Origin: Microcaldota archaeon
GTDB taxonomy: Archaea; Micrarchaeota; Micrarchaeia; Micrarchaeales; CABMGC01
NCBI GenBank assembly: GCA_021852055.1
Contig: JAJZOD010000001.1
Location: forward strand, 1-48,382
DNA: 48,382 nucleotides
Reading direction: 5' to 3'
The translations under genes and the position numbers were made by a program. Numbering within the stretch: the stretch's first letter is position 1; each line of letters starts with the position of its first letter. The notes below the pieces were generated by a model. The model worked only from the letters and a program-made list of their open reading frames with translations, had not been told where the DNA came from and ran no database searches. Positions 2,199 through 36,801 of the stretch are shown here, piece by piece.

Positions 2199-2263
2199 AC
2201 ATTAAGTGCGCCTGCCGTATAAAGGCCTTAACAGTCTTCGATTATTAAAGTATGCTCAGCCAG

Positions 2264-3019: not shown

Positions 3020-3027
3020 CTAATCAC

Positions 3028-4032: not shown

Positions 4033-4044
4033 CTTGCATAGTAT

Positions 4045-21207: not shown

Positions 21208-21216
21208 GCAAACCAG

Positions 21217-21363
21217 TTAGATATTTTGCCGCTTTAGGAGGTATTTGTCAAGGAGCTTCTGCACGTACCTTGACACAACATTCGAATTTCCTTTTGCTGT
21301 TTTCAGTATTTTGTAACTCCTTACATAAGAAAACTTCTTGTTTATCGCTACTTCATACTTCAT
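21217..21363 (-). CDS. Small basic protein, 48 residues
   Basis: An ATG at 21363 (preceded by GGTG) opens MKYEVAINKKFSYVRSYKIL, continues with basic residues and ends at the TAA at 21217-21219. It fits exactly between two genes of the locus, with 14 bp to the upstream stop and 9 bp to the downstream start, which supports a real gene. There is no membrane segment. Function unknown. Confidence 0.5.
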   Translation of the reverse strand: MKYEVAINKKFSYVRSYKILKTAKGNSNVVSRYVQKLLDKYLLKRQNI

Positions 21364-21377
21364 ATAAATGCACCACT

Positions 21378-22085
21378 TCAGCCTCTTACCTCAAGGTATC
21401 CCATAGACACCATCTTATCCAGAATCTGCTCAACCCGCGGCGCTGTTATGTTGTAGGTTTTAGAGACTAGATCTATATCTATAGTGTTGTTATGGACCTC
21501 TATCCAGTCTTCTATTATCGACATTAAAGATTCATCCGAGTATTTCTGCAGCTTTTCTAGGCTGTCTTTAAGCGTTTTATTTTCGTTTTCTAGCTGTGAC
21601 GCCTGCAGTGTGAGGTTTCTGTTTGATGCCGACAACTCTATATTGAGCCTTTTGAGCGCCCTATACTCTTCAAGCATAGCATCGTACTTGTTGTATAATG
21701 AACTATAGCTCTGCGAGATCCCGGAGAGGAGCTTGTCTATTGTTGAATCAACATACTGCATGAGCTCTGACGTGTTTACAGTATAGTCTTCTGAAATCAT
21801 CGACAGCGCTGACGCTACATTTTTTAAAACAGACGCGCGGCGCAGCGATTCGCTTGTATCCGGAGGTATCGAGTATATTACCTCCAGGCCCGAAGCAGTG
21901 AAATTCATAAGATAAAAAAGGTATGGCATCTTATGTATGTTTCGGCTTTCAATAACACCGACAAAAAAAGAATCGTTTTCTATGCCTGTGGAGTAAAAAG
22001 GCACAGAGGCAAGCTTTGACTTCATCATATCGAAATTCGAGAGGAGCTTACCCTCGAGTTTCAGTTTTTCGACTTTTGGAGCCAT
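21378..22085 (-). CDS. Coiled-coil protein with C-terminal winged helix, VirB-like locus
   Basis: I chose the ATG at 22085 (MAPKVEKLKLEGK) because GGAGA lies seven bases upstream; a GTG at 22127 would add 14 residues. Residues 20-110 look like a small alpha/beta domain (FFVGVIES, YLFYLMNF). Residues 115-185 form a long coiled coil (LLSGISQSYSSLYNKYDAML and LQASQLENENKTLKDSLEKL). The last 50 residues form a winged-helix-like fold (VSKTYNITAPRVEQILDKMV, GYLEVRG). It may be an adaptor or a regulator of the secretion-like locus. Confidence 0.6.
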   Translation of the reverse strand: MAPKVEKLKLEGKLLSNFDMMKSKLASVPFYSTGIENDSFFVGVIESRNIHKMPYLFYLMNFTASGLEVIYSIPPDTSESLRRASVLKNVASALSMISEDYTVNTSELMQYVDSTIDKLLSGISQSYSSLYNKYDAMLEEYRALKRLNIELSASNRNLTLQASQLENENKTLKDSLEKLQKYSDESLMSIIEDWIEVHNNTIDIDLVSKTYNITAPRVEQILDKMVSMGYLEVRG

Positions 22086-22197
22086 TGAGTTGTCTCCGTT
22101 TTTGTTTTCTTCTGCCACAAGAACCACTTACAGATAAGATAAACAAATCTAATGTATATATGGCTTGCGTTTCAGCTGCATGCCACACCCGTACGCC

Positions 22198-22614
22198 TTA
22201 TTTCTTGTTATACACCATTGAGGCTTTGCTAGGTTTTGGATTTATTTTGAGTTCAGGCATATAATTGAGAAGGGAAAGCAGGTAAAGCAGTATAAGAACT
22301 CCGATGCCGAATGACAGAGCGTATAGGAACGAGTATATTGTTGGAGACGATGAGGAGCTTATAAGCAACAGCATTATGAGGAATATGACTCCCAGCGCTA
22401 CGTACATTGCCTGCCTTCTGACGTATCTCTTCCTGTATTTTTTGTATTTCTCATAGCACTCCTTGCACACGACTATTCTATTATTCTTGACAGAGTTAAA
22501 GACTTTTTTCTTTATGAACCTGATGCTGCGTATAACGTTGTCTTCCTTTATTTCTATGCCATCGCGCTCCTGCCCACACACTATGCAGTAGCTTTTTTGC
22601 TTTTCATGTTTCAT
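22198..22614 (-). CDS. Zinc-ribbon protein with two membrane helices
   Basis: The N-terminal 60 residues contain two CxxC pairs (YCIVCGQE and VVCKECYEK), a zinc ribbon. A very basic linker (KYKKYRKRYVRRQ) and two hydrophobic helices follow (YVALGVIFLIMLLLI and FGIGVLILLYLLSLL). The ribbon should face the cytoplasm by the positive-inside rule. Its ATG overlaps the upstream gene's stop (TAATG), tying it to the VirB4-like cluster. Family not recognised. Confidence 0.65.
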   Translation of the reverse strand: MKHEKQKSYCIVCGQERDGIEIKEDNVIRSIRFIKKKVFNSVKNNRIVVCKECYEKYKKYRKRYVRRQAMYVALGVIFLIMLLLISSSSSPTIYSFLYALSFGIGVLILLYLLSLLNYMPELKINPKPSKASMVYNKK

Positions 22615-22922
22615 TAGTCCACCAAATTAAGCTTAGATACCTTGCCATATGTCTCTTTTATCTTCTCCTCATCAAGCGTATTAAAGACCCTAGTTATGCT
22701 TGTATCACCAAAGCCTATCCTACGGAGTATGTTTGTTATGTCCTGCGGATTTATCCCGAGCTTCTCCAGCATACCGACAAATGCCACAGCATCAACATGC
22801 TTGTGCTCCTTGTCCAGCCTGCTTAGCATGACTTCTACACTGCCGTCGCTTATTCCAAGAGAAGTTATCATTTTTTTGAGGTCGATCTTGCTTACCACAA
22901 AACTGTTTTTCAATGAATTCAC
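22614..22922 (-). CDS. Stand-alone copy of the VirB4-like ATPase C-terminal domain
   Basis: This 102-residue protein aligns without gaps over 69 residues (15-83) with the last 69 residues of the adjacent ATPase (432-500). I count 17 identities by eye, including the shared ends RRIGFGDTSITRVF and RGMGLKDELVSRVF. The domain is all-helical with two internal half repeats (GI/GV starts). Start is GTG at 22922, with a TTG at 22913 after GGTGA as alternative. A solo repeat lies exactly at the junction with the ATPase gene, so the two may once have been one reading frame or a tandem domain pair. Confidence 0.65.
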   Translation of the reverse strand: MNSLKNSFVVSKIDLKKMITSLGISDGSVEVMLSRLDKEHKHVDAVAFVGMLEKLGINPQDITNILRRIGFGDTSITRVFNTLDEEKIKETYGKVSKLNLVD

Positions 22923-22950
22923 CCGGATTTCCCGCTATACACGGTTAAAC
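22921..22950. repeat. Solo IS200/IS605-like end (partial copy 3) at ATPase stop codon
   Basis: GGATTTCCC (from 22925) through ACGGTTAAAC (22950) matches the copy at 4650-4675 at 24 of 26 positions. The minus-strand TAA inside GGTTAAAC (22945-22947) is the ATPase stop codon. The left half of the hairpin present in other copies is missing. Confidence 0.5.
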
Positions 22951-24450
22951 GAAATTTTTGAAGACCCTTGAAACTAACTCATCCTTCAAGCCCATGCCCC
23001 TGAGGAGACTTATTACACTGTCGCGGCTTACACCTTCGCCCAGCAGTAGCTTGATGAATGTGATTATATCGATGTTGTTGCCTTGGTCGCCAAGCTTTGA
23101 GATAAATTTAAGCACCACATCGGAACCAATGCCGCTTTCTATGAGTTTGGAGCTCAGGCTCATTTTATCAAATGAATACTCCTTTTGTATGGTATTGTCC
23201 TCTATCTCGTCCTGGTTTAGTATTTTAGATATTGAGACAAGGTATGTATCAAGAGGCAGCTCGCCAACTATCTTGTCTATCATGAAGATGTTTGGGAACT
23301 GAACACCAGTGTTAAATGCCATGTCTACGGCTGCTTGACCGACACCTAACTTGCTTATCTCGCTGCGTATGAAATCGGAAAAGTTGAGCGAGCCCTGAAG
23401 ATAGTTCATGAATTTTTCAAATCGGATTCTTAACATGAACGTCGTGCCTGCATTTGAGAATATGGCCTCGTTTACGTCTGTAGGGTTCTGCGATGCGACT
23501 ATCAAGCCGAAGTGATACTTCCTGCCTTCCCTGATTATTGTGACTGCGTCGCTTCTCTCGTCGCTTGCAACTTTCCACGCCTCGTCCAGAACCACAAAGG
23601 TCTTTATGCCTGCAGATGCGGACCAGCCCTCCATGCGCATCTTTTCCTTGAGGGTCTGCAGTATGAACAGCGCTGCCATTGCCCTGAAACGCTCGTCCGG
23701 AAGGCTTGACAAATCGATGTCTATGAGCCCCGATGACGCCAGTTTGCCTATGTCTACTGTGCTCTTGTTTGCAAAATAGTCTTCGCCCTCTCTTGAGAAC
23801 TGCCTCAGCCGGTATATTGTATTCTCTAGTTCAGCAGGATATTCATAAGTGCCTTCCTGCAACTTCTCGTCAAGAAGCGAGGTTACATCTTTCAGTGTAG
23901 GAGGCTCCTTGTCAGGCGGAGGAGGAGAAGCAAGTATAAATCCTGCATTCACATAAGACTGCTCTATGGCCTCTTCAGTAAGTCTGCGCTGTTCTGGATA
24001 CTCGGCTATGTCGGTAAGTATATCAAGTGAATTCATTATCTGCTTTGTGCGGTCTATAGGCTTCATGCCTGACAAATCCATGAGATTCAGATAGTCCCCT
24101 TTTGAGAAGGATATAGTCTTGCCGCCGCTCTGCTTTACCCATGAAATGTATTCGCCTGCCCAGTCTATTATTATGGCGTTGGTGTTCCATACATAGCTTG
24201 CCCTTGTAAGAAAAGTTTTTACAAAGAAGCTCTTTCCGGCGCCTGTTATTCCAACTACTGACACATGTGGGTTTGTAAGCATGGAGAACGTCCAAGTGAA
24301 CGGCACCTTAAACACTTTTGTAGTGCCTATGAATATAGAATCTGTAGGATCGTTAAGCAAAAACTCGTGCGGCGGTTCTGGAGGCCTTGTGATGAACAGC
24401 CTTTTTGATATCTCATTGCTCATTGTAGTTTGAATGCGTACGAGTGTCAT
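22945..24450 (-). CDS. VirB4/HerA-type secretion ATPase
   Basis: A 501-residue FtsK-HerA-superfamily ATPase. IFIGTTKVFKVPFTW precedes Walker A GITGAGKS (67-74). Then come IIIDWAGEY (93-101), Walker B TFVVLDEAW (284-292) and the sensor-like VASQNPTDV (318-326). This layout is that of the C-terminal motor of VirB4/TraC and of archaeal CedB/TedB. The usual VirB4 N-terminal domain is missing here; similar domains appear on the two preceding genes. Residues about 430-501 are an extra helical domain repeated in the next gene. It should power assembly or transport by the VirB6-like proteins encoded upstream. Confidence 0.85.
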   Translation of the reverse strand: MTLVRIQTTMSNEISKRLFITRPPEPPHEFLLNDPTDSIFIGTTKVFKVPFTWTFSMLTNPHVSVVGITGAGKSFFVKTFLTRASYVWNTNAIIIDWAGEYISWVKQSGGKTISFSKGDYLNLMDLSGMKPIDRTKQIMNSLDILTDIAEYPEQRRLTEEAIEQSYVNAGFILASPPPPDKEPPTLKDVTSLLDEKLQEGTYEYPAELENTIYRLRQFSREGEDYFANKSTVDIGKLASSGLIDIDLSSLPDERFRAMAALFILQTLKEKMRMEGWSASAGIKTFVVLDEAWKVASDERSDAVTIIREGRKYHFGLIVASQNPTDVNEAIFSNAGTTFMLRIRFEKFMNYLQGSLNFSDFIRSEISKLGVGQAAVDMAFNTGVQFPNIFMIDKIVGELPLDTYLVSISKILNQDEIEDNTIQKEYSFDKMSLSSKLIESGIGSDVVLKFISKLGDQGNNIDIITFIKLLLGEGVSRDSVISLLRGMGLKDELVSRVFKNFV

Positions 24451-24500
24451 GATAATGCCACACTAAGCTATTTGGTATTGCAGTTTATATGCGTTGTGTT

Positions 24501-24575
24501 TGTGACATCCTCCAGCATGTAAACAGCGCTGGCTTCCTTTGCGTCATGAATTCCCCGCTCGCGTTTTTAATGAAA
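24501..24575. repeat. Solo IS200/IS605-like end (right-end type) inside the VirB-like locus
   Basis: TGACATCCTCC is followed by a hairpin CCAGC/GCTGG (24512-24516 and 24528-24532) around TGTAAACA, then GGCTTCCT, TG-GTCATGAA and CCCCGCTCGCG. The block from GTAAAC to GTCATG resembles that beside the tnpB remnant at 34984-35014. The phrase 'GACATCCTCC, hairpin, GGCTTCC' is familiar from IS605/TnpB element ends. It occupies the gap between the ATPase gene and the VirB4-N-like gene. Confidence 0.55.
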
Positions 24576-24576
24576 G

Positions 24577-25401
24577 TCAGGACTGTGAGTCGAAAAGCTT
24601 CTGCATCAGTGCGCCTTCATACAGCACATAGTTCAGCTTGAACAGCGTATGTATCTCTCTGCCTGTGACCCGTGTGACACCTAAGTCAAGAGAACTGAAA
24701 AGCGTTTCTAGCCTTTCAAGCTGGTTTCTGAGTGCGTCTGCAGCTGCCTTATCGCTTACCCCGACTGCTGTTGTCTCCACGTACATTATGCTGTTGAGAG
24801 GCAGCTCACCTGTTGATATCCTGTCTATGCGTGCCTGAAGTATGTTCATCTTCCTTTGGATTGCCTGCATTGTCATCGAATTTGGAGCTTCCCTCTCCGA
24901 CTCCTTTGACATCTGGAACTCGAGGAAGCCGCGCCTGCCTTCAAGGTCTTCCCTATACTTCTGTATGTCCTTTGGATTTGAGATTATATTAAATTTGAAT
25001 GGAAAATCTGCATTGATTATTATGCGCTCCCATTTTTCAGGGGCGCCTGCAAGGGCCTGTTCGTCCTCGCCCATTATCGCCTCTTCGCGGAATACGTATT
25101 TGTATATGTTTGCCGTAAGATAGCCGGTGGCGTAGTACAAACCATTTACGTACTTCACAATCCTGTCCTGCTCTTTAGGGGCCATATTGCCCTTTGCAAG
25201 AGTTATGCTGATGCCAAGCAGTTTTGTAATTACAGGGAATATAAGAAAATCTGCGTAGTTCAGCACGAGTATTATGCCGACAGTAGCAAGCGATAGTATA
25301 ACCATTAAAAACCCGAATACGCCGAAGTTTGAAAGGCCTATGAGAAGCAAAAATACGGCGAGTATTGAGAAACCCAAGTACACTATAGATTCTTCATCCA
25401 T
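24577..25401 (-). CDS. Membrane protein with VirB4 N-terminal-like domain (1)
   Basis: Residues 5-65 hold two or three close hydrophobic helices (LGFSILAVFLLLIGLSNFG and GFLMVILSLATVGIILVLN). From about 75 the protein is soluble, with an alpha/beta segment IIINADFPFKFNIISNP, a helical stretch KMNILQARIDRISTGELPLN, SIMYVETTAVG, and LRNQLERLETLFSSLDLGVT. This order (strand, paired helices, 'x-Y-V-x-x-x-A', helix, 'L-G-V-x-x-x-x-L') resembles the N-terminal domain of VirB4/TraC, preceded by VirB3-like helices. The ATG at 25401 has GGTG upstream. It lies just before the ATPase gene and probably forms a bipartite VirB4 with it. Confidence 0.6.
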   Translation of the reverse strand: MDEESIVYLGFSILAVFLLLIGLSNFGVFGFLMVILSLATVGIILVLNYADFLIFPVITKLLGISITLAKGNMAPKEQDRIVKYVNGLYYATGYLTANIYKYVFREEAIMGEDEQALAGAPEKWERIIINADFPFKFNIISNPKDIQKYREDLEGRRGFLEFQMSKESEREAPNSMTMQAIQRKMNILQARIDRISTGELPLNSIMYVETTAVGVSDKAAADALRNQLERLETLFSSLDLGVTRVTGREIHTLFKLNYVLYEGALMQKLFDSQS

Positions 25402-25413
25402 AACAAAGCACCC

Positions 25414-26268
25414 TCATATGCCCTCTTCTACTGTCTTTTGGTGAATAAGCTCATTTACAGTTTCAACAGGTATCATGCGATCCGGCTCAATGAAATTAAG
25501 TATCTCTTCGCCATCGGCAACATAGGCGCTTATGCCCAGTATTGCACTTATTCCTGAGGCGACTTCCTCTGCATGCTGATATGCTATGCTTGATGCCTCT
25601 TCCTCATTGCCACCGTTTGCGCTGACCATTGCATAGGTTATGAGCGCCTCTGATTTAGATGCGCTTATGTTGTTAAGCAGATTATGCCACATTGTAACCT
25701 CTCCCTTGGCCCTGTCTGTTATCTGTGTGCCTGAACCTGCCTGCTGCAACACAGATCTGAGCTTTGATTCGGACTCGTCAAGCTTGTTCCTTATTTTTGC
25801 TATGTATTTGTCTTTGTTGACGATATAAAGCTGTGATGATATTTTGATGGTGCTCTTTGAAACGGTGAGGATCCTGCTGAATAGCCTTGCTATGTCCAAG
25901 CGCTCCTGATCAGACATCTCAGTCCCTGACTTGTATATTGGTATTGTTATAAATGACGAGGCATAAGTCCCATTTTCATCGCTTGTTATTATTGAGGTGC
26001 CTGAAGGCGAAAGGAGATATGGTTCAGCAGAACTGATGGCGATGTTTTTGTTTTTCATCCTCATTGCAGGTATGTACAGGTACATATAATATTTTGTAGA
26101 GAATGCAACTACTGCAAGTATAAGCGCCAACACCCCGAGCAGGAATGCTAAAAGCGAGTTTCCTACAGTATAAGTCAGCACTGCGCACACCATTGATGCT
26201 CCTGCAAATACTATAAACAGAAGCATCTGGGATTTAAGCGCCAACAAAACACCGATTATGAAATACAA
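25414..26268 (-). CDS. Membrane protein with VirB4 N-terminal-like domain (2)
   Basis: It has two helices (MLLFIVFAGASMVCAVLTYT and LLAFLLGVLALILAVVAF), then a soluble domain of about 210 residues. SSFITIPIYKSGTEMSDQER is followed by LFSRILTVSKSTIKISSQLY, a helical hairpin and LITYAMVSANGGNEEEASSI. It ends like VirB4 N-domains, with a small-residue helix and 'GEEILNFIEP'. It is a second, diverged partner of the gene at 24577-25401. The frame opens with TTG at 26268. A strong TATA at 26269-26281 makes a start at the TTG 26244 (after GGTG) or the ATG 26226 more likely. Confidence 0.55.
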   Translation of the reverse strand: MYFIIGVLLALKSQMLLFIVFAGASMVCAVLTYTVGNSLLAFLLGVLALILAVVAFSTKYYMYLYIPAMRMKNKNIAISSAEPYLLSPSGTSIITSDENGTYASSFITIPIYKSGTEMSDQERLDIARLFSRILTVSKSTIKISSQLYIVNKDKYIAKIRNKLDESESKLRSVLQQAGSGTQITDRAKGEVTMWHNLLNNISASKSEALITYAMVSANGGNEEEASSIAYQHAEEVASGISAILGISAYVADGEEILNFIEPDRMIPVETVNELIHQKTVEEGI

Positions 26269-26281
26269 GTATATATATTTA
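26269..26281 (-). promoter_or_regulatory. Internal promoter of the VirB-like locus
   Basis: On the minus strand this reads as TAAATATATATAC, a strong TATA box between the last VirB6-like gene and the first VirB4-N-like gene. Transcription would start near 26248. It would let the ATPase half be expressed independently of the six channel-like genes. Confidence 0.5.
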
Positions 26282-26317
26282 GACTTTTTTTACAGTTGCC
26301 ATGCCCTTTTATGGTAT

Positions 26318-27571
26318 TCATATTATCTTGAATTTGCCGGACATGCTTGTCATGTTACCCAGGAACTGGGCAATCTGTACTATCATTGCATAAGTAATTG
26401 CGAATATAAGGACAGGATAGAACAGCACCGACATCCAGTATGAGCCAAGCCCCTGCCTTAGAAGGTTAAGCTCCTGTGGCAGCGGAGACTGAGGGCTAAC
26501 AGCATTGAGCTGTGCTCCAGGGCCGTTGCCGTAAGATGCAAGAGCAGACGTTACCCCAAGCAGCTGCTGCGTCATTGATTGGTTTGTGAAGTAGTATGCG
26601 ACAGAGAACAATGTCGGCATTATTATGTATGTGCCTATTGCTATGGCTATCATCATGCCGCCTAGGCCGCGGAGCGGCAGAATTGAACGAAGTATAATTC
26701 CGGGTATCAGAAACACAGGTATAGCTGCATACATAAATATCATTATCATGTAAAACTCGCCGTATAGCAGTGCTATGGCATCGCTCTGCAGGCTTATGTA
26801 CGCCATTGCAGGTATGTAGAAGAATACGGTTATTGCAGGCTCGAGGTAATCTGCAATGTCATCGCTGCACCACTGTGTGCCGCTGACACTACCGATTTGC
26901 GCAGCTCCGGAGTATATCGGAAGTGAAGACGAGGCACCACTGGCGGCTGACTGCGATGCTATGCCTGAAGCTGCAATATTCGGAAGTTCAGGAGTTGGTG
27001 GCGCACCTATCTGTGCCGCACCTGTGCTTGCACCGCCGCTATTGAACCCGGTGCACACGGCAATGTGCGTAGTCATTAGCTGCTTATCAGCTACGGCTAT
27101 GTTGAACAGCTCCGTGAGCATGTTCTGCGTGCTGTTTATTGTATTGCTTACGTAATTCAGAGAGCTGACATAAGGGTTTGTGCCGATTATCAGAGAAGGA
27201 ATAAGGCCGACCATCACAGCAGTAAGGAATAGGAATCCTGCCACTATTATTGTAGTCGCTATTGCCTCGTAATACTCGCCTATTGCAAAATTGCGTATCT
27301 TGCCATTGTTCAGTATCTGAGCTGCGATGAACAGTATTGTTGCTAATGTGAATGAGAAGAGTATCGCAATTACAGCTATCGGTTCCCATGTACTCCACTG
27401 GCTTGCTATGGCCTGGTCTGCCTGAGTGCAGTACCACGGCGCAGCACCTTGGATTATGCCGGGATTTGCGCCGCCTACACAGTAGCTGTTGGTGCTGCTC
27501 GCAGACAGCATTCCGGAAGCTGCAACAAGCAGAAGGAATGCAGCGAGAGCAATAAACCTTTTTCTTAACAT
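26318..27571 (-). CDS. VirB6/TrbL-like polytopic membrane protein (6 of 6)
   Basis: A 417-residue protein with an N-terminal signal sequence (1-26). A helix pair flanks FAIGEYYEAIAT (about 64-128). A Cys-containing, Ala/Gly/Ser-rich extracellular loop of about 110 residues follows, then four helices. The shared family motif is PGIILRS (290-296) with RGLGG (301-305) and a Pro at 319, ending the 'IAIAIGTYIIMP' helix. The plan matches VirB6/TrbL/CedA-type inner-membrane channel proteins, although the sequence link is inferred. GGTG precedes the ATG. It is the last of six consecutive paralogues. Confidence 0.7.
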   Translation of the reverse strand: MLRKRFIALAAFLLLVAASGMLSASSTNSYCVGGANPGIIQGAAPWYCTQADQAIASQWSTWEPIAVIAILFSFTLATILFIAAQILNNGKIRNFAIGEYYEAIATTIIVAGFLFLTAVMVGLIPSLIIGTNPYVSSLNYVSNTINSTQNMLTELFNIAVADKQLMTTHIAVCTGFNSGGASTGAAQIGAPPTPELPNIAASGIASQSAASGASSSLPIYSGAAQIGSVSGTQWCSDDIADYLEPAITVFFYIPAMAYISLQSDAIALLYGEFYMIMIFMYAAIPVFLIPGIILRSILPLRGLGGMMIAIAIGTYIIMPTLFSVAYYFTNQSMTQQLLGVTSALASYGNGPGAQLNAVSPQSPLPQELNLLRQGLGSYWMSVLFYPVLIFAITYAMIVQIAQFLGNMTSMSGKFKII

Positions 27572-27581
27572 TGCTGCACCA

Positions 27582-28721
27582 CTATATCACATTTGTCAGA
27601 AGCGAGATGAAGCTCATCCGCTCCCCTATCGCTGAAGAGAAATCGGATATGAACGCATCCAGTATCATAAAATTGAGTATGTTTATGAAAGTTACGCCTA
27701 TAACTATTATGCCTATGTATACAAACAGCTGCTCTGTAAGAATTGTAGTGCCTAAGGTGTTGTTTGTCAGATAGCCCAGCAGGAAAGTCATGTCTGTAAT
27801 TACAGGGGACACCGCAGGGATTGCAAGGGCGCCATATGTAGCAGCAGGCGATACATGTTCAAGCGCATGGTCGAGAAAGCCGTAGTTCAGCCCGATAAGC
27901 ACTGGGTATATGAAGCCGATCCCAAGCCCGAATGCTATCATAGCCCCTCCGAAAGTCCTTGTAACCCCGAAAGCGCGCGCTATGAGCCCTATTGCCATGA
28001 AGAAAGCGAAAAGATATGGAGATGCTCCAAGGAGTATCAGCTGCAGCTGGTTTATCAGTTCAAACGTATACATGGCCGGTATTATGAAATTCTCGAACGT
28101 ATTCGCCTTTGCAAGAGGCGACAGTTCTACAGGCCCAAGATCTGCAGTTATTATAAGGCCTGCAGAGCCAAAGGGATTTATCTGCTGGCCGTAGGTTGAG
28201 CCGCTGAATGCAGCGGTGCCCGGAGTAAGTGGTAAACCTGCTATCAGGATGTTTGGCGCTATGGCGAATGTTACCAAAGTGTAGTAGATATAAAGATTAA
28301 ATGAATCGACATGCCCGTTGAACTGGTACATGTTGCACATGGCAAGCGAGTAGATGTTTTCAACAGGCATGGCACCTGACGCAGACGTGCACTGCGAGGA
28401 GATAAGCCCGGCGCTGTTGAATATGTTGACAGGGTTTTCTGTGCAGAGCGCAGTTGCTATGCTTCCGAATATTGCTATCAGGACTATAGAAAGAAGAAGC
28501 TCGTATATCTTCACTTTTACCCAGGGCCTTATCGAACTTATGCTGCCTATCAGCGGTGCAAGTGCGTATATCACGGAGAGTATGCTTATTATTGCAAGGA
28601 CAGCAAGGATTACAATAGGGAACCATGCAGTGTACGGAGCCGTAAGGAAGGAGCTTATGCTGCTTACGCAGCTGCTTATGATGAGCATGAAGCCTGTATA
28701 CAAAAGTGTTATGTCCATCAT
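27582..28721 (-). CDS. VirB6/TrbL-like polytopic membrane protein (5 of 6)
   Basis: A 379-residue protein with about seven helices and no cleavable signal. The early pair surrounds WVKVKIYELLLSIVLI (about 67-82). A loop with Cys93, Cys111 and Cys129 follows. The family motif is GLIARAFGVTRTFGG (245-259), then MIAFGLGIGFIYP with the conserved Pro at 273. Its start overlaps the preceding gene's stop by four bases (ATGA), indicating translational coupling with the neighbouring paralogue. It is separated from the next paralogue by 10 bp. Confidence 0.7.
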   Translation of the reverse strand: MMDITLLYTGFMLIISSCVSSISSFLTAPYTAWFPIVILAVLAIISILSVIYALAPLIGSISSIRPWVKVKIYELLLSIVLIAIFGSIATALCTENPVNIFNSAGLISSQCTSASGAMPVENIYSLAMCNMYQFNGHVDSFNLYIYYTLVTFAIAPNILIAGLPLTPGTAAFSGSTYGQQINPFGSAGLIITADLGPVELSPLAKANTFENFIIPAMYTFELINQLQLILLGASPYLFAFFMAIGLIARAFGVTRTFGGAMIAFGLGIGFIYPVLIGLNYGFLDHALEHVSPAATYGALAIPAVSPVITDMTFLLGYLTNNTLGTTILTEQLFVYIGIIVIGVTFINILNFMILDAFISDFSSAIGERMSFISLLTNVI

Positions 28722-29857
28722 AGTACAGCCTGCATTATCCTGCCTGCATTGAGCGAAGGCGCGCCAAGCACCCTTGCCAGCACTGAAACAAGATCAAATG
28801 ATATCAGAAATGCTATAAACACGCCTATTAAAAGCATTACAAAATAGGATACCTCTAGCGCGTATAGAGATGAATTTGATTCTAGAGGGCTGAATATCTG
28901 CGAGATTCCGGTATCAGACTGGTATATTGGCAGTATAGTACTCTGGAAGTATGAGATTATATCTGTATTCTGCTGTATACTTGGCAGCGAAGAGGCTGCA
29001 CCGGTATTTATTGAGGAGAGAGCTGATGGCGCGGCTTCTATGGGATACAACAGTGCAGGGAAAACTATATAGAAGGATATAAACAGCGCTAGGAATGTGC
29101 CTCCTGCAGCTCTTGTCCATGGCAGCGCACGGAAGAGTATACCGAGGTAAAGGAATACAGGAAACAGGAAGTAGATGGCAAAGAACAAAAATATCAAGGT
29201 TATGCTTATTGCAAGCATTAGTATGGATGCTGACTTCTCAAGGCCTATTATGTTGCTTATAAAGCCGATGCCCTGCAGCGGCGATATCATAAAGCTTGGG
29301 ATCACAGAGGCGATAGTGCCGCTTATGAACACATGTATCTCTGTACCGGACAAGAATGTGTATACCATGTTAAGCAGCGTAAAAGACACAAACGCCTTTC
29401 CTGCAGGTATTATCTGATTATTGAATATGTTTGTGCATAAACTTGTGTACAGCGACTGCATGCCTATTGGACCCTGCACCTGCGCGCTTGACGTAGATGT
29501 TGCAACGCCGGTGAAGAAGTTTGTTACTCCATTAAGGGAGGCCATGCCCGACCATATAAGCATTATAAGCAGTATGTTGAATACTGACTCCATGTACTCC
29601 GACTTGACAAATGTTACCAGTTTGCTTATGCCGAATCCTGCGCCTATGCCGTACAGAAGGGCAAGGACAAGCAGTACAGCAAACACTATCAGAAGCGATA
29701 CAGACAGAAGGCTGTAAAATGTTGTAGCACTGTATATCGAACTGCTGACTACACTGTTGGTGTTCCCGAATATGTCATTGCAGTAGGCTGCGCCTGCAGC
29801 GCTTGCGCTTGCTATAGAGACAAGAAGCAGAGCCAATACAATAAATCTTGCTTTCAT
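28718..29857 (-). CDS. VirB6/TrbL-like polytopic membrane protein (4 of 6)
   Basis: A 379-residue protein with signal sequence 1-22 (FIVLALLLVSIASASAA). The early helix pair surrounds FVKSEYMESVFNILL (about 83-97). A central loop contains Cys141, and a further hydrophobic segment lies near 180-205. The family motif is LGILFRALPWTRAAGG (238-253), followed by a helix that ends at Pro267. A loop of about 60 residues and a final helix near 335-360 close the protein. It overlaps the next paralogue by four bases and follows the previous one after 7 bp. Confidence 0.7.
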   Translation of the reverse strand: MKARFIVLALLLVSIASASAAGAAYCNDIFGNTNSVVSSSIYSATTFYSLLSVSLLIVFAVLLVLALLYGIGAGFGISKLVTFVKSEYMESVFNILLIMLIWSGMASLNGVTNFFTGVATSTSSAQVQGPIGMQSLYTSLCTNIFNNQIIPAGKAFVSFTLLNMVYTFLSGTEIHVFISGTIASVIPSFMISPLQGIGFISNIIGLEKSASILMLAISITLIFLFFAIYFLFPVFLYLGILFRALPWTRAAGGTFLALFISFYIVFPALLYPIEAAPSALSSINTGAASSLPSIQQNTDIISYFQSTILPIYQSDTGISQIFSPLESNSSLYALEVSYFVMLLIGVFIAFLISFDLVSVLARVLGAPSLNAGRIMQAVL

Positions 29858-29864
29858 AAAGACA

Positions 29865-31430
29865 CTACACCAGACGCTCTATGCCGAACAACCTCGTATC
29901 TCCGCCGAGAAGCGAGGATATGCTAAATAGTGCGGCAAGGACTAAAAGCGCATTAATCAGAGGGAATATCAGCCCTATGATGGACATAAGGCCATACAGG
30001 TTGTATAAGGAGAATGTAGTATTTATTGCATTGTAGCTGTTGCAGGTAAAACCAAGGTGCAGAAGCTGCGATGAGACTGAAGGCCCGCTTGTAGCTGTTT
30101 GCCCGGTGTTGGTAAATAGGTTAAGAGCGCCGTTTAGAAGCCCCAGAAGAGGAGTGCCGTATGCGCCTATGACCTGAAGTTCTCCTGTTATAAGGTTGCC
30201 TCCTGCAGGCCAGCAGCCATCATGATAGATTATGTAATCTGCGCGCGGGAATACAAAGAAATTCAATTTTTCATCGTAGTTTATAGTGTATGAAGATGGC
30301 TGTGATACAAGGGATGCGAGAGCAGATGAAAGGCTTGCCGGAGGCGGTTGCGAGCCTATGAGCTGCAATGTTGGAAGAGAGGTTGCGCCTATGGGCTGGC
30401 TTCCTACAGTGTTAAGCGAGTTGTACTGCATCAGGAATATTGCAGGATACACAAGTAGGCCAACAACAGCTATAGCTATCAGCAGGCCGCCGACCTTGCG
30501 CGTAAGGAATGAGGCGCGCAGTATTATTCCAGCAGCGAGTATGTACGGCCATGAATGCAGAAGCACTATTATTATCATCAGTTGCAATATAAACAAATAG
30601 AACATCAGCGTCGACTGCTGCGTAAGCAGGTTTGCCGAATCGAGGAGTATGTCGTATCCGGCAAATGGCTGGAAGGTATACTTTACTTCTAAAGCACCAT
30701 AGCCTGCCGGCGTGCTGCCGGATACTGAACCGGCCAGATTGCCCAGTAGACCGGTGCCGCCCGTTGCAACGCTGAGGCCAACACATGTAAGCGCAGGCCA
30801 GCACATGGAGTCTGTTGAGTTGAAGGTAGAGAGGAAACTCATATAGCCGCGGTAGATATAGTAGCCGTTCAGGTTTGTGGCTGTCTGGTTTGTAAGGTTT
30901 GCCAGTACAAGATATGTAGAGGCAAGGCCGTAATCAAGGTTGGCAGTTGCCTGCTGCTGGTTCGGATTATTGCCGCCATTGCCTGCGCTTGGTATGAGAT
31001 TGGTGCATATCTGATTAGTTGGGGTCTGCTGTAGTCCATTTATAAAGTTAAGATTCGCACCATTCAGGGTAGTGCAAAGATTATTGGCATTGGAACGCGA
31101 CATTAGGAGTGACGGATAAAAGCCGCTTCCGAATAATTCGAACACAGCTATAAGAATTACAACGACCAAAGCTGTGCCTATGGCATTTTCAAATTCTGAT
31201 AACGCAGCCGACTTTATTGTGCGGTTGTTAAGTAGCGTACCTATTATATAGTACACCATCACTATACCTACACTTGCGATTATGGCGAGAACAACTATTG
31301 GCAGCCATTCAGTAAATGCCGATATGCTTGTTGTTATGCTCGGAGGCGTTGTCGCAGCGTATGCAGTGAACGAAGTAAGCACAGTAGCAAAGACGATTGA
31401 AAGCATTAATTTTGACAACTTAATATGCAT
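29865..31430 (-). CDS. VirB6/TrbL-like polytopic membrane protein (3 of 6), largest
   Basis: The largest paralogue at 521 residues. A signal sequence (1-26) is followed by the early helix pair around ALSEFENAIGTALVV (about 76-90). A 150-residue extracellular loop rich in Asn, Thr and Gly with four Cys (119, 142, 210, 216) comes next. The family motif is GIILRASFLTRKVGG (301-315), then LLIAIAVVGLLVYP. A further 130-residue loop with Cys precedes the final hydrophobic segments. Size variation between the paralogues lies almost entirely in the extracytoplasmic loops. Confidence 0.7.
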   Translation of the reverse strand: MHIKLSKLMLSIVFATVLTSFTAYAATTPPSITTSISAFTEWLPIVVLAIIASVGIVMVYYIIGTLLNNRTIKSAALSEFENAIGTALVVVILIAVFELFGSGFYPSLLMSRSNANNLCTTLNGANLNFINGLQQTPTNQICTNLIPSAGNGGNNPNQQQATANLDYGLASTYLVLANLTNQTATNLNGYYIYRGYMSFLSTFNSTDSMCWPALTCVGLSVATGGTGLLGNLAGSVSGSTPAGYGALEVKYTFQPFAGYDILLDSANLLTQQSTLMFYLFILQLMIIIVLLHSWPYILAAGIILRASFLTRKVGGLLIAIAVVGLLVYPAIFLMQYNSLNTVGSQPIGATSLPTLQLIGSQPPPASLSSALASLVSQPSSYTINYDEKLNFFVFPRADYIIYHDGCWPAGGNLITGELQVIGAYGTPLLGLLNGALNLFTNTGQTATSGPSVSSQLLHLGFTCNSYNAINTTFSLYNLYGLMSIIGLIFPLINALLVLAALFSISSLLGGDTRLFGIERLV

Positions 31431-31431
31431 C

Positions 31432-32658
31432 TCAACTACCCCAGAACGGCCCGCTGTTTCCCATTATGGATGGTATTGCATTAAGCCCTTTATAAAGACC
31501 CTGCGCAAACCCCATTGTTATTGCGAAATCTATTGCTATCAGCACTATACCCTCAAATACGTACTGTGCAACTTCTGCAGTCATGTTATTAACCTGATTG
31601 GGAAGCAGGATAAGACCTTCGATAAGATTCATTATATAACTCCCATAGCCTCCGCTGCCTGATGCAGTAGTGGCAAGGTAAAAGCTTACTGGAAGCGTGA
31701 GCGGCACTCCTCCGGCATTACCAAAATTTGCAGTCTGAGGCGTCAGAAGGTATGCAAGGGGTATGTTGCCAAGGTCGTAGCTGCCCAGGTATGTAGTGTA
31801 GGGGTTGCATGATGTTGTGCCGTTGGCGCAGTAAAGCCAGTTCATTATTCCCTGATTCACTGATATAGTGAGCGGAAATACAAAAAACAGCGCTACGCCA
31901 AGTGCTATCAATGCATTTGACGCCTCGCGGAGCTTAGGCCCTGCAAATGATATAGAGCGCATCAGTATGGCAACTGGAACCAGCAGATTCAGTGCAAGCG
32001 CGCTTATAAGGGGCAAGAGGAAGTATAGTATAAACAAGGCTCCGAACGTCACTACTATGAAGCCGGAATATACAACGTAAGTGTTAGAATACGAGGAGTA
32101 AACATTTGATATGCGCCCCGTATAGTTTATTATGACATAATTGGAAAGGAACTGCACGGATTTGATTGGTATCTTGCTGAGGATGCCGCTGCCTGTAATT
32201 TTGCCTACGCTTGAGGACAAGCTAAAAAATATATTGTTCGAGAACGCAGAATCTATCGAAAGTATCATGCCTTGCGCTATAAGCTGGGTTGTTATGCTTG
32301 TGCCTTTTACAAACAGCAATGAGGTTATGTAATAGCTGTCTGACTGGAAGATGTTTTGATAATCGCCGCTTGGAAGGCCCGAAAGCGCAGCGCCTGCACC
32401 GCATGCCGCATATGCCATTGATACAAGTGAGGCTATAAGCACTATACTGAAGAATCCCTCGGTATACTCTATCCTTACTGCACCTTTAAGCCTGTCACGC
32501 ATAGGATTAGGCAAAAGGCCTGAGAGTGAGTATATGATTGCGCCTACGCTCAGCGTGGCTAGCACTATCAGCGCATCGACGCCTATCCAGTTGTTTATGT
32601 TGATTGTAGCTAAAGTACAGGAATTCTGTGCACTAAGCAAAAACGCAGGCAGGTACAT
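31432..32658 (-). CDS. VirB6/TrbL-like polytopic membrane protein (2 of 6)
   Basis: I use the ATG at 32658 (MYLPAFLLSAQNS), which overlaps the previous stop as TGATG; a TTG one codon earlier is possible. The early pair surrounds AVRIEYTEGFFSIVLI (about 60-76). The family motif is diverged: PVAILMRSISFAGPKLREAS occurs where others end in R-x-x-GG, so the double glycine is lost, but the following helix LIALGVALFFVFP keeps the Pro. This loss marks it as the most divergent channel-like subunit. It has about seven helices and ends with a C-terminal GPFWGS. Confidence 0.68.
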   Translation of the reverse strand: MYLPAFLLSAQNSCTLATININNWIGVDALIVLATLSVGAIIYSLSGLLPNPMRDRLKGAVRIEYTEGFFSIVLIASLVSMAYAACGAGAALSGLPSGDYQNIFQSDSYYITSLLFVKGTSITTQLIAQGMILSIDSAFSNNIFFSLSSSVGKITGSGILSKIPIKSVQFLSNYVIINYTGRISNVYSSYSNTYVVYSGFIVVTFGALFILYFLLPLISALALNLLVPVAILMRSISFAGPKLREASNALIALGVALFFVFPLTISVNQGIMNWLYCANGTTSCNPYTTYLGSYDLGNIPLAYLLTPQTANFGNAGGVPLTLPVSFYLATTASGSGGYGSYIMNLIEGLILLPNQVNNMTAEVAQYVFEGIVLIAIDFAITMGFAQGLYKGLNAIPSIMGNSGPFWGS

Positions 32659-33911
32659 CAAATCAACTTCAATCTTCTGCCGAAGGAGAGGCGTATAGTG
32701 CCTCCCAGCAGCCTTGCTATATTGTCAGTTATAGAGTATGCAAGAATAATGTCTATAATAAACAGGAACCAGAACTGGAAAATTAGGAAAAGATTATAAA
32801 AAAGTATATAGTTGAGCGCTGGATATGCCGAGTATACGGAAGACATAGCAACTCCGATTACGCTTATGGCGCCGCCCCCCGGATTGCTTACAGTGCCTGA
32901 TAGAAAAGACATGCCCACAACTGCAGAACACACTGTAGATACAAGACCTAGCCCGCTGCATGGATTTGAAGAGCCAGATAGCTGCGTTGCGAAAACAGAC
33001 GTGAAGTAGTTTGACAGTGGAGCATTGAAAAGCACCAGTATTGAGGGCCAGATTATACCAAGACCTATGCCCAAGGCTATGAGCGTGCCGCCTATGCCCC
33101 TTACAAGAGGCACGGCCCTGAATATAAGGCCGATTGGCACAAGAAGCATGAGGCCTACTGCAATAAACAGAGGGAGCAGGTACAGCTGCGAGGTGTAAGT
33201 GGTAAGCATTGGAATCTCTACGAAATTTACCACATCATTGAACATTGACGAGTATTGAGGCGACCCGAGACCGAGGACATCATTGCTAAAAGGCGTGAAT
33301 CCCACTCCGGATTTGAATACAGGAAGCAGTGCAATCACAATCGCAGACACAGGCGTTGATGCCAGGCCAAGCAGGTACTTCTCAGGAGGTATTGATATTC
33401 CCGGCCAGATTATCTTAAGGCTGTGAAGGGCACCGTAAGCTATCTGAAGATCAAGCATGCTGCTCATGCTGTTTGTGAGCTGGGAGTTGACGCTGCAGAG
33501 ATAGACCTCTGATTGGTATGTAAGCTGGGATACATTGGCTGAATAGTTACCAGTGGGTGACCCTGTGAGTGTAAGCGCTATGCCGCTGAGTATTGCAAGA
33601 ACCGAGAATATTACAACTACCAGAATGAATGATTTGATTATCTCTTTGTACTCATTCTCAAGCCAGCGCCCTAGATTTATCCCCGGAAGCAGTTTTGAGA
33701 TTATGTAAATTATGCCTATAATAATGAGGGATACAAGCAGCGCAAGAACCGAGAGGTCTATTGCAGTGCTAGTTACGTTTGTATTGCTTACTCCGGCACC
33801 TATGCCATTGCCGAGTACAGCGCTTGTTGGACAAGGCGTCAGGCCTGAATAGGCAAGGCTGAGAAATAGCAGTGAAAACAGCAACGAAGCCCTAACAGCG
33901 CTCCCTCTCAT
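32658..33911 (-). CDS. VirB6/TrbL-like polytopic membrane protein (1 of 6)
   Basis: A 417-residue protein with signal sequence 1-22. The early pair is well conserved (SLIIIGIIYIISKLLP, then WLENEYKEIIKSFILV at about 83-98). It resembles CedA/TrbL-like proteins in having an acidic/aromatic motif between the first helices. The family motif is GLIFRAVPLVRGIGG (261-275), followed by TLIALGIGLGIIWP. Later helices near 330-400 end in the basic tail LSFGRRLKLI. It is the first of six tandem paralogues and follows the basic single-helix protein gene by 68 bp. Confidence 0.7.
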   Translation of the reverse strand: MRGSAVRASLLFSLLFLSLAYSGLTPCPTSAVLGNGIGAGVSNTNVTSTAIDLSVLALLVSLIIIGIIYIISKLLPGINLGRWLENEYKEIIKSFILVVVIFSVLAILSGIALTLTGSPTGNYSANVSQLTYQSEVYLCSVNSQLTNSMSSMLDLQIAYGALHSLKIIWPGISIPPEKYLLGLASTPVSAIVIALLPVFKSGVGFTPFSNDVLGLGSPQYSSMFNDVVNFVEIPMLTTYTSQLYLLPLFIAVGLMLLVPIGLIFRAVPLVRGIGGTLIALGIGLGIIWPSILVLFNAPLSNYFTSVFATQLSGSSNPCSGLGLVSTVCSAVVGMSFLSGTVSNPGGGAISVIGVAMSSVYSAYPALNYILFYNLFLIFQFWFLFIIDIILAYSITDNIARLLGGTIRLSFGRRLKLI

Positions 33912-33979
33912 GCTTTATCTCTTGAAGTACACTTATAAAGAGCTTGCCGTAGCCAATAGATGCAACGCATTGAGAAGCG

Positions 33980-34930
33980 TTAAGTGTTCTTTCCGAGCTT
34001 GCCGCGATGGGTTTTTGCGCCTGTCCTTACTGCTCCTAGGTCAACAAGCTTCTCGGAAGCAAACACAATCCGATTGGTAGATCTGCTGTAAACGCTTTTG
34101 TTGTATATATCCTTAAACTCCTTCGAATACTTCTTATCAAGCTCCTTCTGTGATTTACGTATGGCCTTTTCCCTCTCTACAGGATCTGCTATATTTGAAT
34201 GCTTAGTTTGTATATCTTGAAGCTCGCGATGGTGGCGCGCTATGAGACCGGTATTGGGATGGTATATATCTTCTTTTGCTTTTTTGAGTTTTTCGTAGTT
34301 TTTGCGGAGGTTTTTTTGGCCTAGAATCGGAAATGGAAGCGTAAGCGGATTCTTTCTTTTTAAAAGTTCCTCGTGAAGGGCTATTCTATCTTCAAGCGCA
34401 GTTGTTACAGGAACGCCGGGTTTCTTGCTGGGTGTCTTGTAGCCCATGCCTCTTGACCTATATACAGCATTTCTAACCGACTTTGCGGTAGACAGCACAG
34501 GCGCTGCTACAGAAGTTACGCTTTTACGAAATGGTGACCTAAACACGGCTTTAGATGCTAGAACACCACTGGTTGTAGCAAACTTGACAAATTTTGATTT
34601 CTCTGGCGCCTGATACATTACATTATAATAATCCTCTTTTGTATTTGCTTTCTTTGCTTTGCTCATACTGCGCCTTCGTTTAAGCGCAGGAACAATCTGC
34701 TTTTTTGTAAGTGTCTGTGTTGTTGTAGAGAGTTGCCTGTTGAATCCGGACCTTGCAAGAGATGCTTTTGCACTTTTGCCAGAACCCATGCCCATGAATG
34801 TGCCTATTGAAAACAAATCCAGAAACGAGAATCCGCGCGTCAGGCCTGCGGCTGCGCCTATCAGTATTATTATCACAAGTATAGGCACCAGTGCGTTTAT
34901 GGCCCCTATTGATAGTATGAAAAGTACCAT
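33980..34930 (-). CDS. Very basic single-helix protein at head of the VirB-like locus
   Basis: I start at the ATG at 34930 (MVLFILSIGAINALVPILVI). The frame extends 29 codons upstream, but that part lies in the end of a degenerate insertion sequence. One membrane helix (1-28) is followed by GFSFLDLF and about 270 highly basic, soluble residues rich in Lys, Arg and Ser, with a long helical segment (about 205-290) of charged heptad character. The tail could bind nucleic acid or the ATPase. A minus-strand TATA (GGATATAACGG, about 34966-34976) lies beside the insertion-sequence hairpin. No family recognised. Confidence 0.6.
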   Translation of the reverse strand: MVLFILSIGAINALVPILVIIILIGAAAGLTRGFSFLDLFSIGTFMGMGSGKSAKASLARSGFNRQLSTTTQTLTKKQIVPALKRRRSMSKAKKANTKEDYYNVMYQAPEKSKFVKFATTSGVLASKAVFRSPFRKSVTSVAAPVLSTAKSVRNAVYRSRGMGYKTPSKKPGVPVTTALEDRIALHEELLKRKNPLTLPFPILGQKNLRKNYEKLKKAKEDIYHPNTGLIARHHRELQDIQTKHSNIADPVEREKAIRKSQKELDKKYSKEFKDIYNKSVYSRSTNRIVFASEKLVDLGAVRTGAKTHRGKLGKNT

Positions 34931-34977
34931 GTTTATTTCATGGACGGGAGAGCTTAAAATCCTATCCGTTATATCCT

Positions 34978-34996
34978 CACGCAAGTAAACTGCGTG
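34978..34996. repeat. IS200/IS605-like end hairpin next to tnpB remnant
   Basis: CACGCA (34978-34983), loop AGTAAAC and TGCGTG (34991-34996) form a perfect stem, followed by GGCTTCCTC. Compare the related block at 24512-24548. It lies just after the tnpB remnant, where an IS605-family right end would be. Confidence 0.6.
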
Positions 34997-35009
34997 GGCT
35001 TCCTCTGAG

Positions 35010-35246
35010 TCATGCAATCATTGCATCCTGCGAAGGATGTGTTTTATCGGTTCTCATTTCTTCGATGCGGCTTTTCGATGCCTGTTGCACCGCAGAGGCC
35101 ATATCTCCCTGAGCGTGACTTCACCTCTGTCCAAGGGTAGTTGCTCTGTGCAATATGTTTATTGATGCATTTATATCTCTGTCCAACTGCATACTGCATA
35201 CCGCATCTGTTGCAAATGTATGCTCTTTCAGAAAGTGGCACCATGA
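35010..35246 (-). pseudogene. tnpB: Degenerate tnpB (IS200/IS605 family) C-terminal remnant
   Basis: Reading the minus strand, VPLSERAYICNRCGMQ gives the first half of the TnpB zinc finger. After a frame change QLDRDINASINILHRA gives the second half with the 'D-R-D-x-N-A-S-x-N-I' RuvC-III-type signature. It continues as TTLGQR, a stop, then SHAQGDMASAVQQ. The frameshift, the in-frame stop and the absence of the N-terminal 300 or so residues show it is dead. The second CxxC of the finger is also disturbed. It carries a right-end hairpin on its downstream side. Confidence 0.75.
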
Positions 35247-36159: not shown

Positions 36160-36801
36160 TCACTGCAGGGCTTTCAGAGACTGCATATTCTTTACTTCAG
36201 TGACCTTCTTAAGCGCAGAATATGTTGCTATTGCAACATTGTAAACATTCCTTGTCCTTCCGCGTGAATATGTCCATACGTCTTTTACTCCTGCAAGCTC
36301 AAGCACAGAACGCATAGTTTCTGCAGCGACTATGCCTACGCCCCTAGGCGCTGGCTTTAATGTTACAAGAGAGCTGCCGCACTTTGCAGTTTCTGTGAGA
36401 GGCAGCGTATGTTGTGTTCCGCAGTTGCATTCCCAGGAGCCGCAGCCAAGCCGTATCGATATTATATTCTTCTTGGCATCGCGTATTGCTGTTTCTATTG
36501 CAGGCTTAACTTCGACATCCTTGCCTACACCTATGCCAACGTGCCCGTTTCTGTCGCCTACAACCACAGTTACCCTGAATTTCTGGCGCCTGTTGTTCTT
36601 AGTCATTCTCTGGACTGATGCTATTTCAAGCACCTTGTCTTCTAATTTTGGTATAAGGGCGTCAACTATGCCTACTTCTTTTATTATCTTGCCGCTTGCA
36701 AATATCTCTTCAATATTTTTAATGTCGCCCCTTTTGACCTGAACGCCAACTTTTGTTTTAGGCGTCCATGTGCTCTCGTCAGTATATTCATCTAAATCCA
36801 A
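36160..36801 (-). CDS. rpsE: Ribosomal protein uS5
   Basis: 213 residues. The double-stranded RNA-binding N-domain is marked by RMTKNNRRQKFRVTVVVGDR and GHVGIGVGKDVEVKPAI. The C-domain has APRGVGIVAAETMRSVLELA and GVKDVWTYSRGRTRN. A four-Cys-containing insert (GCGSWECNCG) is normal for archaeal uS5. It is the last gene of the ribosomal cluster; uL30, uL15 and secY, which usually follow in archaea, are not here. Confidence 0.95.
   Translation of the reverse strand: MDLDEYTDESTWTPKTKVGVQVKRGDIKNIEEIFASGKIIKEVGIVDALIPKLEDKVLEIASVQRMTKNNRRQKFRVTVVVGDRNGHVGIGVGKDVEVKPAIETAIRDAKKNIISIRLGCGSWECNCGTQHTLPLTETAKCGSSLVTLKPAPRGVGIVAAETMRSVLELAGVKDVWTYSRGRTRNVYNVAIATYSALKKVTEVKNMQSLKALQ

Follow-up and report, generated by a model that had tools for sequence, protein, structure and literature searches.

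A conserved array of six CedA/VirB6-like membrane paralogues in a candidate type IV secretion-like system of Micrarchaeota

The closest described counterparts of the system reported here are the Ced and Ted systems of Sulfolobales and Thermoproteales (CedA/TedA, CedB/CedD/TedB, CedA1/TedC), which likewise combine a VirB6/CedA-like protein, a VirB4/HerA-like ATPase and a VirB2-like pilin (PMC9905601, PMC11868833); CedA and TedA have been linked to VirB6 by profile comparison only (PMC9905601). Among bacterial type IV secretion systems (T4SS), that of R388 has a homopentameric VirB6 and a VirB4 hexamer of dimers joined by their N-domains (PMC9259494), and those of Rickettsiales have tandem VirB6 paralogues (RvhB6a-e or virB6-1 to -4), four in Anaplasmataceae and five in Rickettsiaceae (PMC2653234, PMC7648143). 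Here we analyze a 48,382-nucleotide stretch of DNA from a Micrarchaeota archaeon of the order Micrarchaeales (the window), which is contig 9 of a genome of 1.02 Mb and 90% completeness. It contains one minus-strand operon (18826-35017) comprising the genes U, M1 to M6, D1, D2, a predicted HerA/VirB4-like ATPase, Xa, Xb, Xc and Xd, in which the six M genes encode related membrane proteins. A preliminary description, made from the window sequence, had placed six such genes beside a VirB4-type ATPase; the ATPase is there, and the locus proved larger than the segment then outlined. It had also known of no description of the arrangement, which leaves out of account the Rickettsiales paralogues (PMC2653234, PMC7648143) and holds for archaea and for the number six, for which we found nothing. 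The literature we searched, with incomplete coverage, gave no account of a T4SS in Micrarchaeota or of a six-member array.

The six M genes are as follows:

M1, 32658..33911, minus strand: 417 residues; putative CedA/VirB6-like channel paralogue, position 1
M2, 31432..32661, minus strand: 409 residues; position 2; [AS][ND] in place of the double glycine
M3, 29865..31430, minus strand: 521 residues; position 3; longest of the six
M4, 28718..29857, minus strand: 379 residues; position 4
M5, 27582..28721, minus strand: 379 residues; position 5; Lys or Gln in place of the loop Glu
M6, 26318..27571, minus strand: 417 residues; position 6; best conserved member; AlphaFold2 model with a predicted local distance difference test score (pLDDT) of 80.4

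Coordinates, common strand and lengths (417, 379, 379, 521, 409 and 417 residues from M6 to M1) agree with the preliminary description. M1/M2 and M4/M5 overlap by 4 bases, and the remaining M junctions are gaps of 1-10 bases. The M proteins are paralogues of one family. They can be aligned end to end with 19-24% identity to M1, and direct BLASTP and phmmer searches gave collinear matches among them (M1-M4 1.7e-8, M3-M6 7e-14). In profile-profile comparisons, with profiles built from 35-41 orthologues each, all 15 pairs matched with E-values from 1e-10 to 2e-24, whereas control pairings with the neighbors U, D1, D2 and Xb, which are not of the family, reached 0.0068 to 0.64. Five residues are invariant across M1-M6 (R265, R271, A279, P289 and G403 in M1 numbering). 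These bear out the plan that had been proposed for the six: two helices flanking a short loop that carries a conserved Glu, then a variable extracellular part, then G-x-x-x-R-x5-6-R-x-x-G-G and a helix ending in Pro. The loop motif, given earlier as [EF]Y-x-E-like in all six proteins, has to be withdrawn for M5, where the Glu is replaced; the remainder of the plan stands.

A scan of genome contigs with M1 alone as query found no relatives. Since the M proteins diverge too fast for this purpose, D2 was used as query instead, and loci from Micrarchaeales were collected from ATPase-positive genomes together with 80 named records retrieved with D2. The ATPase is present at at least 60% identity in 56 of the 60 genomes of the order, including the source genome, and the gene order M1-M2-M3-M4-M5-M6-D1-D2-ATPase-Xa-Xb-Xc-Xd is kept in Micrarchaeales relatives, some of which have D1-D2-ATPase relocated away from the M array. 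Of the 92 loci that have the full set of six M, 91 have them in exactly this order; in the exception (locus L089), M3, M4 and M5 were each called twice, most simply through split frames. The non-redundant set comprises 65 complete arrays, each with six M genes and none with five or seven, and 55 of these are flanked by more than 500 base pairs on both sides. Most of the loci with fewer than six are cut by a contig edge, and some M1 lengths are short where the contig ends. Median orthologue identity is 28-39% for the M proteins and 67% for the ATPase, and the intactness of the M frames at such divergence points to selection on each of the six genes. The six-gene array is thus the rule and not a local duplication.

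Beyond the order, D2 relatives were found in 251 of 295 genomes of the class and M relatives in 221 of 245 sampled genomes of the phylum Micrarchaeota. All 30 arrays collected from other orders have six M genes, 29 of them complete and one (L182) ending at a contig edge, so that the array size is six in all 95 arrays (65 from Micrarchaeales and 30 from other orders). A single automatic pass had indicated seven M genes in L161 and five in L168, both of family f7; we put the former down to a split M5 frame and the latter to the overlap filter, all six genes having been seen there earlier, and excluded both loci from the tests of position described below. In one family, f7, the operon is the same as in Micrarchaeales (pilin-M1..M6-D1-D2-ATPase). 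The preliminary description had proposed to look for the array in other Micrarchaeota, and its conservation and its linkage to the ATPase were both found there. In many further families, the M genes lie apart from the ATPase, and searches with an M profile in other orders mostly returned two tandem groups of about six and one single M gene (13 genomes), and one M gene only in three genomes of family f15. No M match was obtained in families f5, f9, f11, f21, f24 and part of f15, many of whose assemblies are 80-91% complete; the system has possibly been lost in some Micrarchaeota lineages.

Single M genes usually lie in a minimal operon of the order pilin-M-D-ATPase (L187 of family f15, L216, L220-L222, L226, L230-L232). 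Some single-M loci show pilin and M alone nearby, and L218 and L227 are less clear. The source genome itself carries a minimal operon on its contig 14, with a pilin, a seventh M protein (M7), a D protein and an ATPase of 373 residues. In this operon (locus L178, G000:C14:19000-34000), the segment 2054-9176 encodes the pilin, the M protein of 354 residues, the D protein of 256 and the ATPase of 373, together with a 226-residue protein, a small membrane protein and a separate P-loop ATPase of 753 residues with weak similarity to VirB4 (CD1110). In L173, a 325-residue protein with seven transmembrane (TM) helices next to D, initially thought to be a single M, was rejected because it has no M score. 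Neighbors of about 910-1160 residues at arrays from other orders proved to be a class-I tRNA synthetase (leucyl type), SMC and Trm5, unrelated to the system.

The six positions are not equivalent. In a tree of 310 M cores, 11 changes of position label were needed, whereas shuffling the labels within arrays gave a mean of 190 changes and never fewer than 182. A position-2 clade unites f7, the other orders and Micrarchaeales with a support of 0.997. Positions 1, 3 and 6 each form one clade of f7 and other-order arrays (support 0.976-0.999), where position 5 is nearly one clade and position 4 falls into two groups; within Micrarchaeales, positions 1, 3, 4, 5 and 6 are each monophyletic with a support of 1.0. 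Matching by mean identity assigned the correct position in 22 of 24 cases between f7 and Micrarchaeales (shuffle mean 3.5), in 138 of 180 between the other orders and f7 (shuffle mean 31) and in 91 of 180 between the other orders and Micrarchaeales (shuffle mean 30).

These positions also differ in residues of the core. Nearly all 65 orthologues of M2 have [AS][ND] in the double-glycine columns; the loss noted earlier in the second gene is therefore fixed. The loop Glu of M5 is Lys or Gln in 65 of 65 Micrarchaeales and Gln in f7, and in each of the three lineages, the LPxG motif of position 3 has lost its Pro. All 16 single M proteins keep the Glu, the Pro, both Arg and the first Gly. Core residues that are otherwise invariant are thus altered in a fixed, position-specific manner. 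Position 3 is also the longest by median in all lineages; in other orders, one of the arrays is prone to a greatly enlarged third member (about 660-1400 residues; L196, L198, L200, L202, L204, L206, L208, L209, L212, L213 and L224), suggesting a lineage-specific large extracellular domain. The most economical history has a single origin of the hexad before the lineages split, followed by duplication of whole arrays in some of them; alternatively, M may have undergone an independent, partial re-expansion in Micrarchaeales.

When M1-M6 were searched individually, there were no meaningful matches to Pfam or NCBIfam. We compared 100 M family members without preselection to the 18,950 NCBIfam models, in which CedA and CedE were the most-matched families, with few and weak hits that lay no claim to the curated cut-offs: CedA (NF041796) was matched by 2 of the 100 members (best 1.7e-5) and its paralogue CedE (NF053657) also by 2 (best 1.8e-4), and a further weak match to CedA came from 1 of 41 other M proteins (9.9e-4). 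Profile searches against PDB sequences gave only matches to ATP-binding cassette (ABC) transporters and coiled coils, which we took as effects of composition, and the M6 model had no significant counterpart among viral structures. In single-M and expanded operons alike, the polytopic M proteins are encoded together with a pilin of VirB2/CedA1-like type and an ATPase of VirB4/HerA-like type. An assignment of M as CedA/VirB6-like gains support from the CedA and CedE matches and this context, membership in the bacterial VirB6/TrbL family being unproven.

The remaining genes of the operon are:

U, 33980..35017, minus strand: 345 residues; one N-terminal TM stretch and a basic tail; accessory
D1, 25414..26268, minus strand: 284 residues; two TM stretches and a cytoplasmic domain; paralogue of D2 (1.7e-12)
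D2, 24577..25401, minus strand: 274 residues; two TM stretches and a VirB4/CedB N-domain-like region
HerA/VirB4-like ATPase (predicted), 22945..24450, minus strand: 501 residues; CedD 1.6e-19, DUF87 7.7e-14
Xa, 22614..22922, minus strand: 102 residues; free-standing paralogue of the ATPase C-terminal tail
Xb, 22198..22614, minus strand: 138 residues; possible zinc-finger N-terminus and two TM stretches; conserved
Xc, 21378..22127, minus strand: 249 residues; coiled-coil-like; conserved
Xd, 18826..21207, minus strand: 793 residues; two TM stretches (residues 3-37 and 549-577) enclosing a large region; conserved, divergent

The ATPase is VirB4/HerA-like as judged by its matches in Pfam (PF01935 7.7e-14, PF12846 3.4e-11, PF19044 9.8e-10) and NCBIfam (CedD 1.6e-19, CD1110-family VirB4 1.1e-18, CedB 8.1e-17). 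It is without the fused N-terminal domain typical of VirB4, CedB and CedD, the Pfam match beginning about 55 residues in, and a VirB4 N-domain-like region is carried by the separate genes D1 and D2. The D2 model (pLDDT 79) consists of an N-terminal TM helix and an alpha/beta domain, and its best specific fold matches in PDB were to TrwK/VirB4 of R388, at a level that is not significant (probability 0.91, E 0.16). The most frequent NCBIfam match of the D2 set was CedB (7 of 56, best 0.0054). Since the N-domains of CedB and CedD in Sulfolobales span different portions of the VirB4 N-domain (PMC11868833), it is plausible that D1 and D2 represent a split VirB4 N-domain.

A gene for a VirB2-type pilin precedes M1 in most relatives. 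Of 24 linked pilins, 8 matched PF04956 and 5 PF18895; L050:3875-4306 lies above both cut-offs. The two-helix plan after a signal sequence, typical of the family, is also present. The main-system pilin of the source genome is on contig 7 (pilin profile 2.9e-33) and has no Pfam match itself. On these profile matches, we assign the linked pilin to the VirB2/TrbC family. Pilin hairpins also occur at the C-terminus of proteins of 472-687 residues with large secreted N-terminal regions (L031:15870-17933; L037:721-2139 and 2155-4188), which are possible tip adhesins; L037 has four consecutive pilin-domain genes. A conserved protein of about 245 residues with 6-7 TM stretches and 45% median identity, P244 (L179:5338-6066 and homologues), matched no Pfam family; its gene lies between pilin and M1 in many loci and on contig 7 in the source genome. 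Xa, which adjoins the ATPase in most loci, resembles ATPase residues 419-498 (phmmer 4.9e-8), as a paralogue of this tail, and may cap or regulate the motor. U is found upstream of M1 or between M6 and D1 in relatives. Upstream of the operon, we read an open reading frame at 36160-36801 as ribosomal protein S5; similar genes precede U in the same genus (L052-L054) and not in most relatives. Pfam scans of the system genes recognized neither a relaxase nor VirD4, no genome-wide search having been made.

The operon probably specifies an envelope-spanning machine that is chromosomally encoded, type IV secretion-like and of the Ced/Ted kind, with M1-M6 forming one channel of six non-interchangeable subunits. 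A more specific model, to which we give even chances, is an asymmetric, hetero-hexameric CedA/VirB6-like ring with one copy of each M, placed on a six-fold motor, which would occur phylum-wide, with duplication of the entire unit in several orders and a version of the single-subunit ancestral system in the same cells. A pilus of the VirB2 type would contact another cell and extend the conduit outside, the hexad would form the membrane pore, and D1 and D2 would provide a membrane anchor and the VirB4 N-domain, coupling the pore to the six-fold ATPase, which would drive the substrate, most likely DNA, through the channel. The machine may have arisen from a minimal pilin-M-D-ATPase operon through growth of M from a single gene to six, with a doubling of the single D gene in Micrarchaeales and family f7. 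The strict count of six fits a ring with one copy per subunit, and we infer that the six M proteins sit in one ring that matches the six-fold ATPase. Of the two ideas offered in the preliminary description, a hetero-oligomeric channel is the better one given the fixed number, the fixed order and the position-specific residue changes; six alternative gates fit poorly with an invariant copy number.

Several observations weigh against this reading. In several lineages, M arrays do not adjoin the ATPase. Two arrays occur in many genomes, yet only one main ATPase locus was seen. The backbone of the tree that joins Micrarchaeales positions 1, 3, 4, 5 and 6 to the other orders has a support of 0.36-0.74. 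Matches of M to CedA and CedE are sparse and weak, the Pfam family TrbL/VirB6 was matched by none of the window proteins or 141 M family members, and the M6 model gave no significant fold match in PDB (TrwI at rank 30, E 5.1, probability 0.06), in a comparison in which helical membrane models fare poorly. Of the VirB6/TrbL/CedA type proposed earlier, the relation to CedA, which heads the NCBIfam matches, is supported and that to TrbL/VirB6 is unproven. Substrate (DNA) and direction are presumed by analogy to Ced/Ted. Finally, the VirB6 ring of R388 is a pentamer (PMC9259494), though its VirB4 is a hexamer of dimers, and a pairing of six M with six ATPase subunits is for this reason something we can only infer.

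Other explanations have to account for the same observations. Each M protein might form a homo-oligomeric pore of its own, swapped according to partner cell or substrate, with ATPase and pilin shared. The extracellular parts of M, which are variable and differ in length, would suit such a role, as would the two six-gene arrays in many genomes of other orders, and the pilin arrays of Patescibacteria T4SS have been explained as host-directed diversification (PMC12102498). Alternative modules normally vary in number, however, whereas here there are six in 95 of 95 arrays in a fixed order; in addition, M genes that overlap or nearly abut in one operon favor equal synthesis, and fixed position-specific changes of the core point to a division of labor within one assembly, so that we judge separate pores improbable. 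Alternatively, only some M proteins may line the pore, the rest being peripheral structural or surface subunits around a classical homo-oligomeric channel, perhaps like the extended VirB6 proteins of Rickettsiales. Position 3, the longest and with the largest extracellular part, would be in keeping with this, and in Anaplasma, VirB6-3 and VirB6-4 are exposed at the surface (PMC7648143). Yet R265, R271, P289 and the same transmembrane core are kept in all six proteins and no member is singled out as the canonical pore subunit, which leaves this arrangement unlikely, if worth keeping in mind.

It is also conceivable that M belongs to another polytopic family that merely lies beside a HerA-like ATPase and contributes no channel subunits. 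M has neither a Pfam family nor a significant fold match, and isolated weak matches to membrane regions of ABC transporters were obtained; against this stand CedA and CedE at the head of the NCBIfam match list, the order pilin-M-D-ATPase of the single-copy operons and the VirB2 family of the linked pilin, and we consider such a chance association very improbable.

Few core parts of T4SS are as poorly understood as the VirB6-type proteins, and the number and equivalence of their subunits are unsettled outside R388. Where exactly six non-equivalent subunits and a sister system with a single one occur in one genome, stoichiometry may follow from gene number, and the position-specific residues indicate which subunit contacts matter. 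If the channel of six distinct subunits is real, a pore usually seen as copies of one protein has here six specialized parts. A channel family present in most of Micrarchaeota is, moreover, a candidate route for the exchange of DNA or nutrients in host-dependent cells.

Among known systems, the likeness is greatest to Ced/Ted, which also have no outer-membrane parts; among named proteins, M is nearest to CedA and CedE, and the ATPase has CedD and CedB among its nearest. Ced/Ted have a single CedA, with an extra CedE in Saccharolobus only, whereas six M proteins are encoded per array here, and one channel gene per system is true only of the minimal single-M system. CedB and CedD, which belong to another phylum, have the VirB4 N-domain fused to the ATPase, in contrast to the separate D1 and D2. 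Ced/Ted are DNA-exchange systems marked by DNA import and damage induction, functions that are hypothetical for the Micrarchaeota system. Patescibacteria resemble Micrarchaeota in having a chromosomal T4SS with VirB2 pilins and VirB4 in tiny, host-dependent cells (PMC12102498), but there the arrayed protein is the pilin rather than the channel protein, within a bacterial VirB6/VirB8/VirD4 set. R388 (TrwI/VirB6, TrwK/VirB4, TrwM/VirB3) has the ATPase N-domain closest to D2 by fold, if not significantly; its VirB6 differs in being homopentameric, and M has no sequence match to TrwI. In MCM2-7, compared to archaeal MCM, a homo-oligomer has been replaced by six fixed paralogues; this is an analogy of evolution only, with an unrelated protein and no common function claimed. 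Rickettsiales share with Micrarchaeota conserved tandem paralogues, there of VirB6 in an operon with virB3 and virB4. These carry a TrbL/VirB6 domain and large extensions, whereas M has no match to that Pfam family, and virB6e has been lost in R. massiliae, whereas Micrarchaeota have six without exception, together with a co-resident single-copy system. Tandem VirB6 paralogues were thus already known; what stands out is that the number is constantly six and that a single-subunit relative resides beside the array system.

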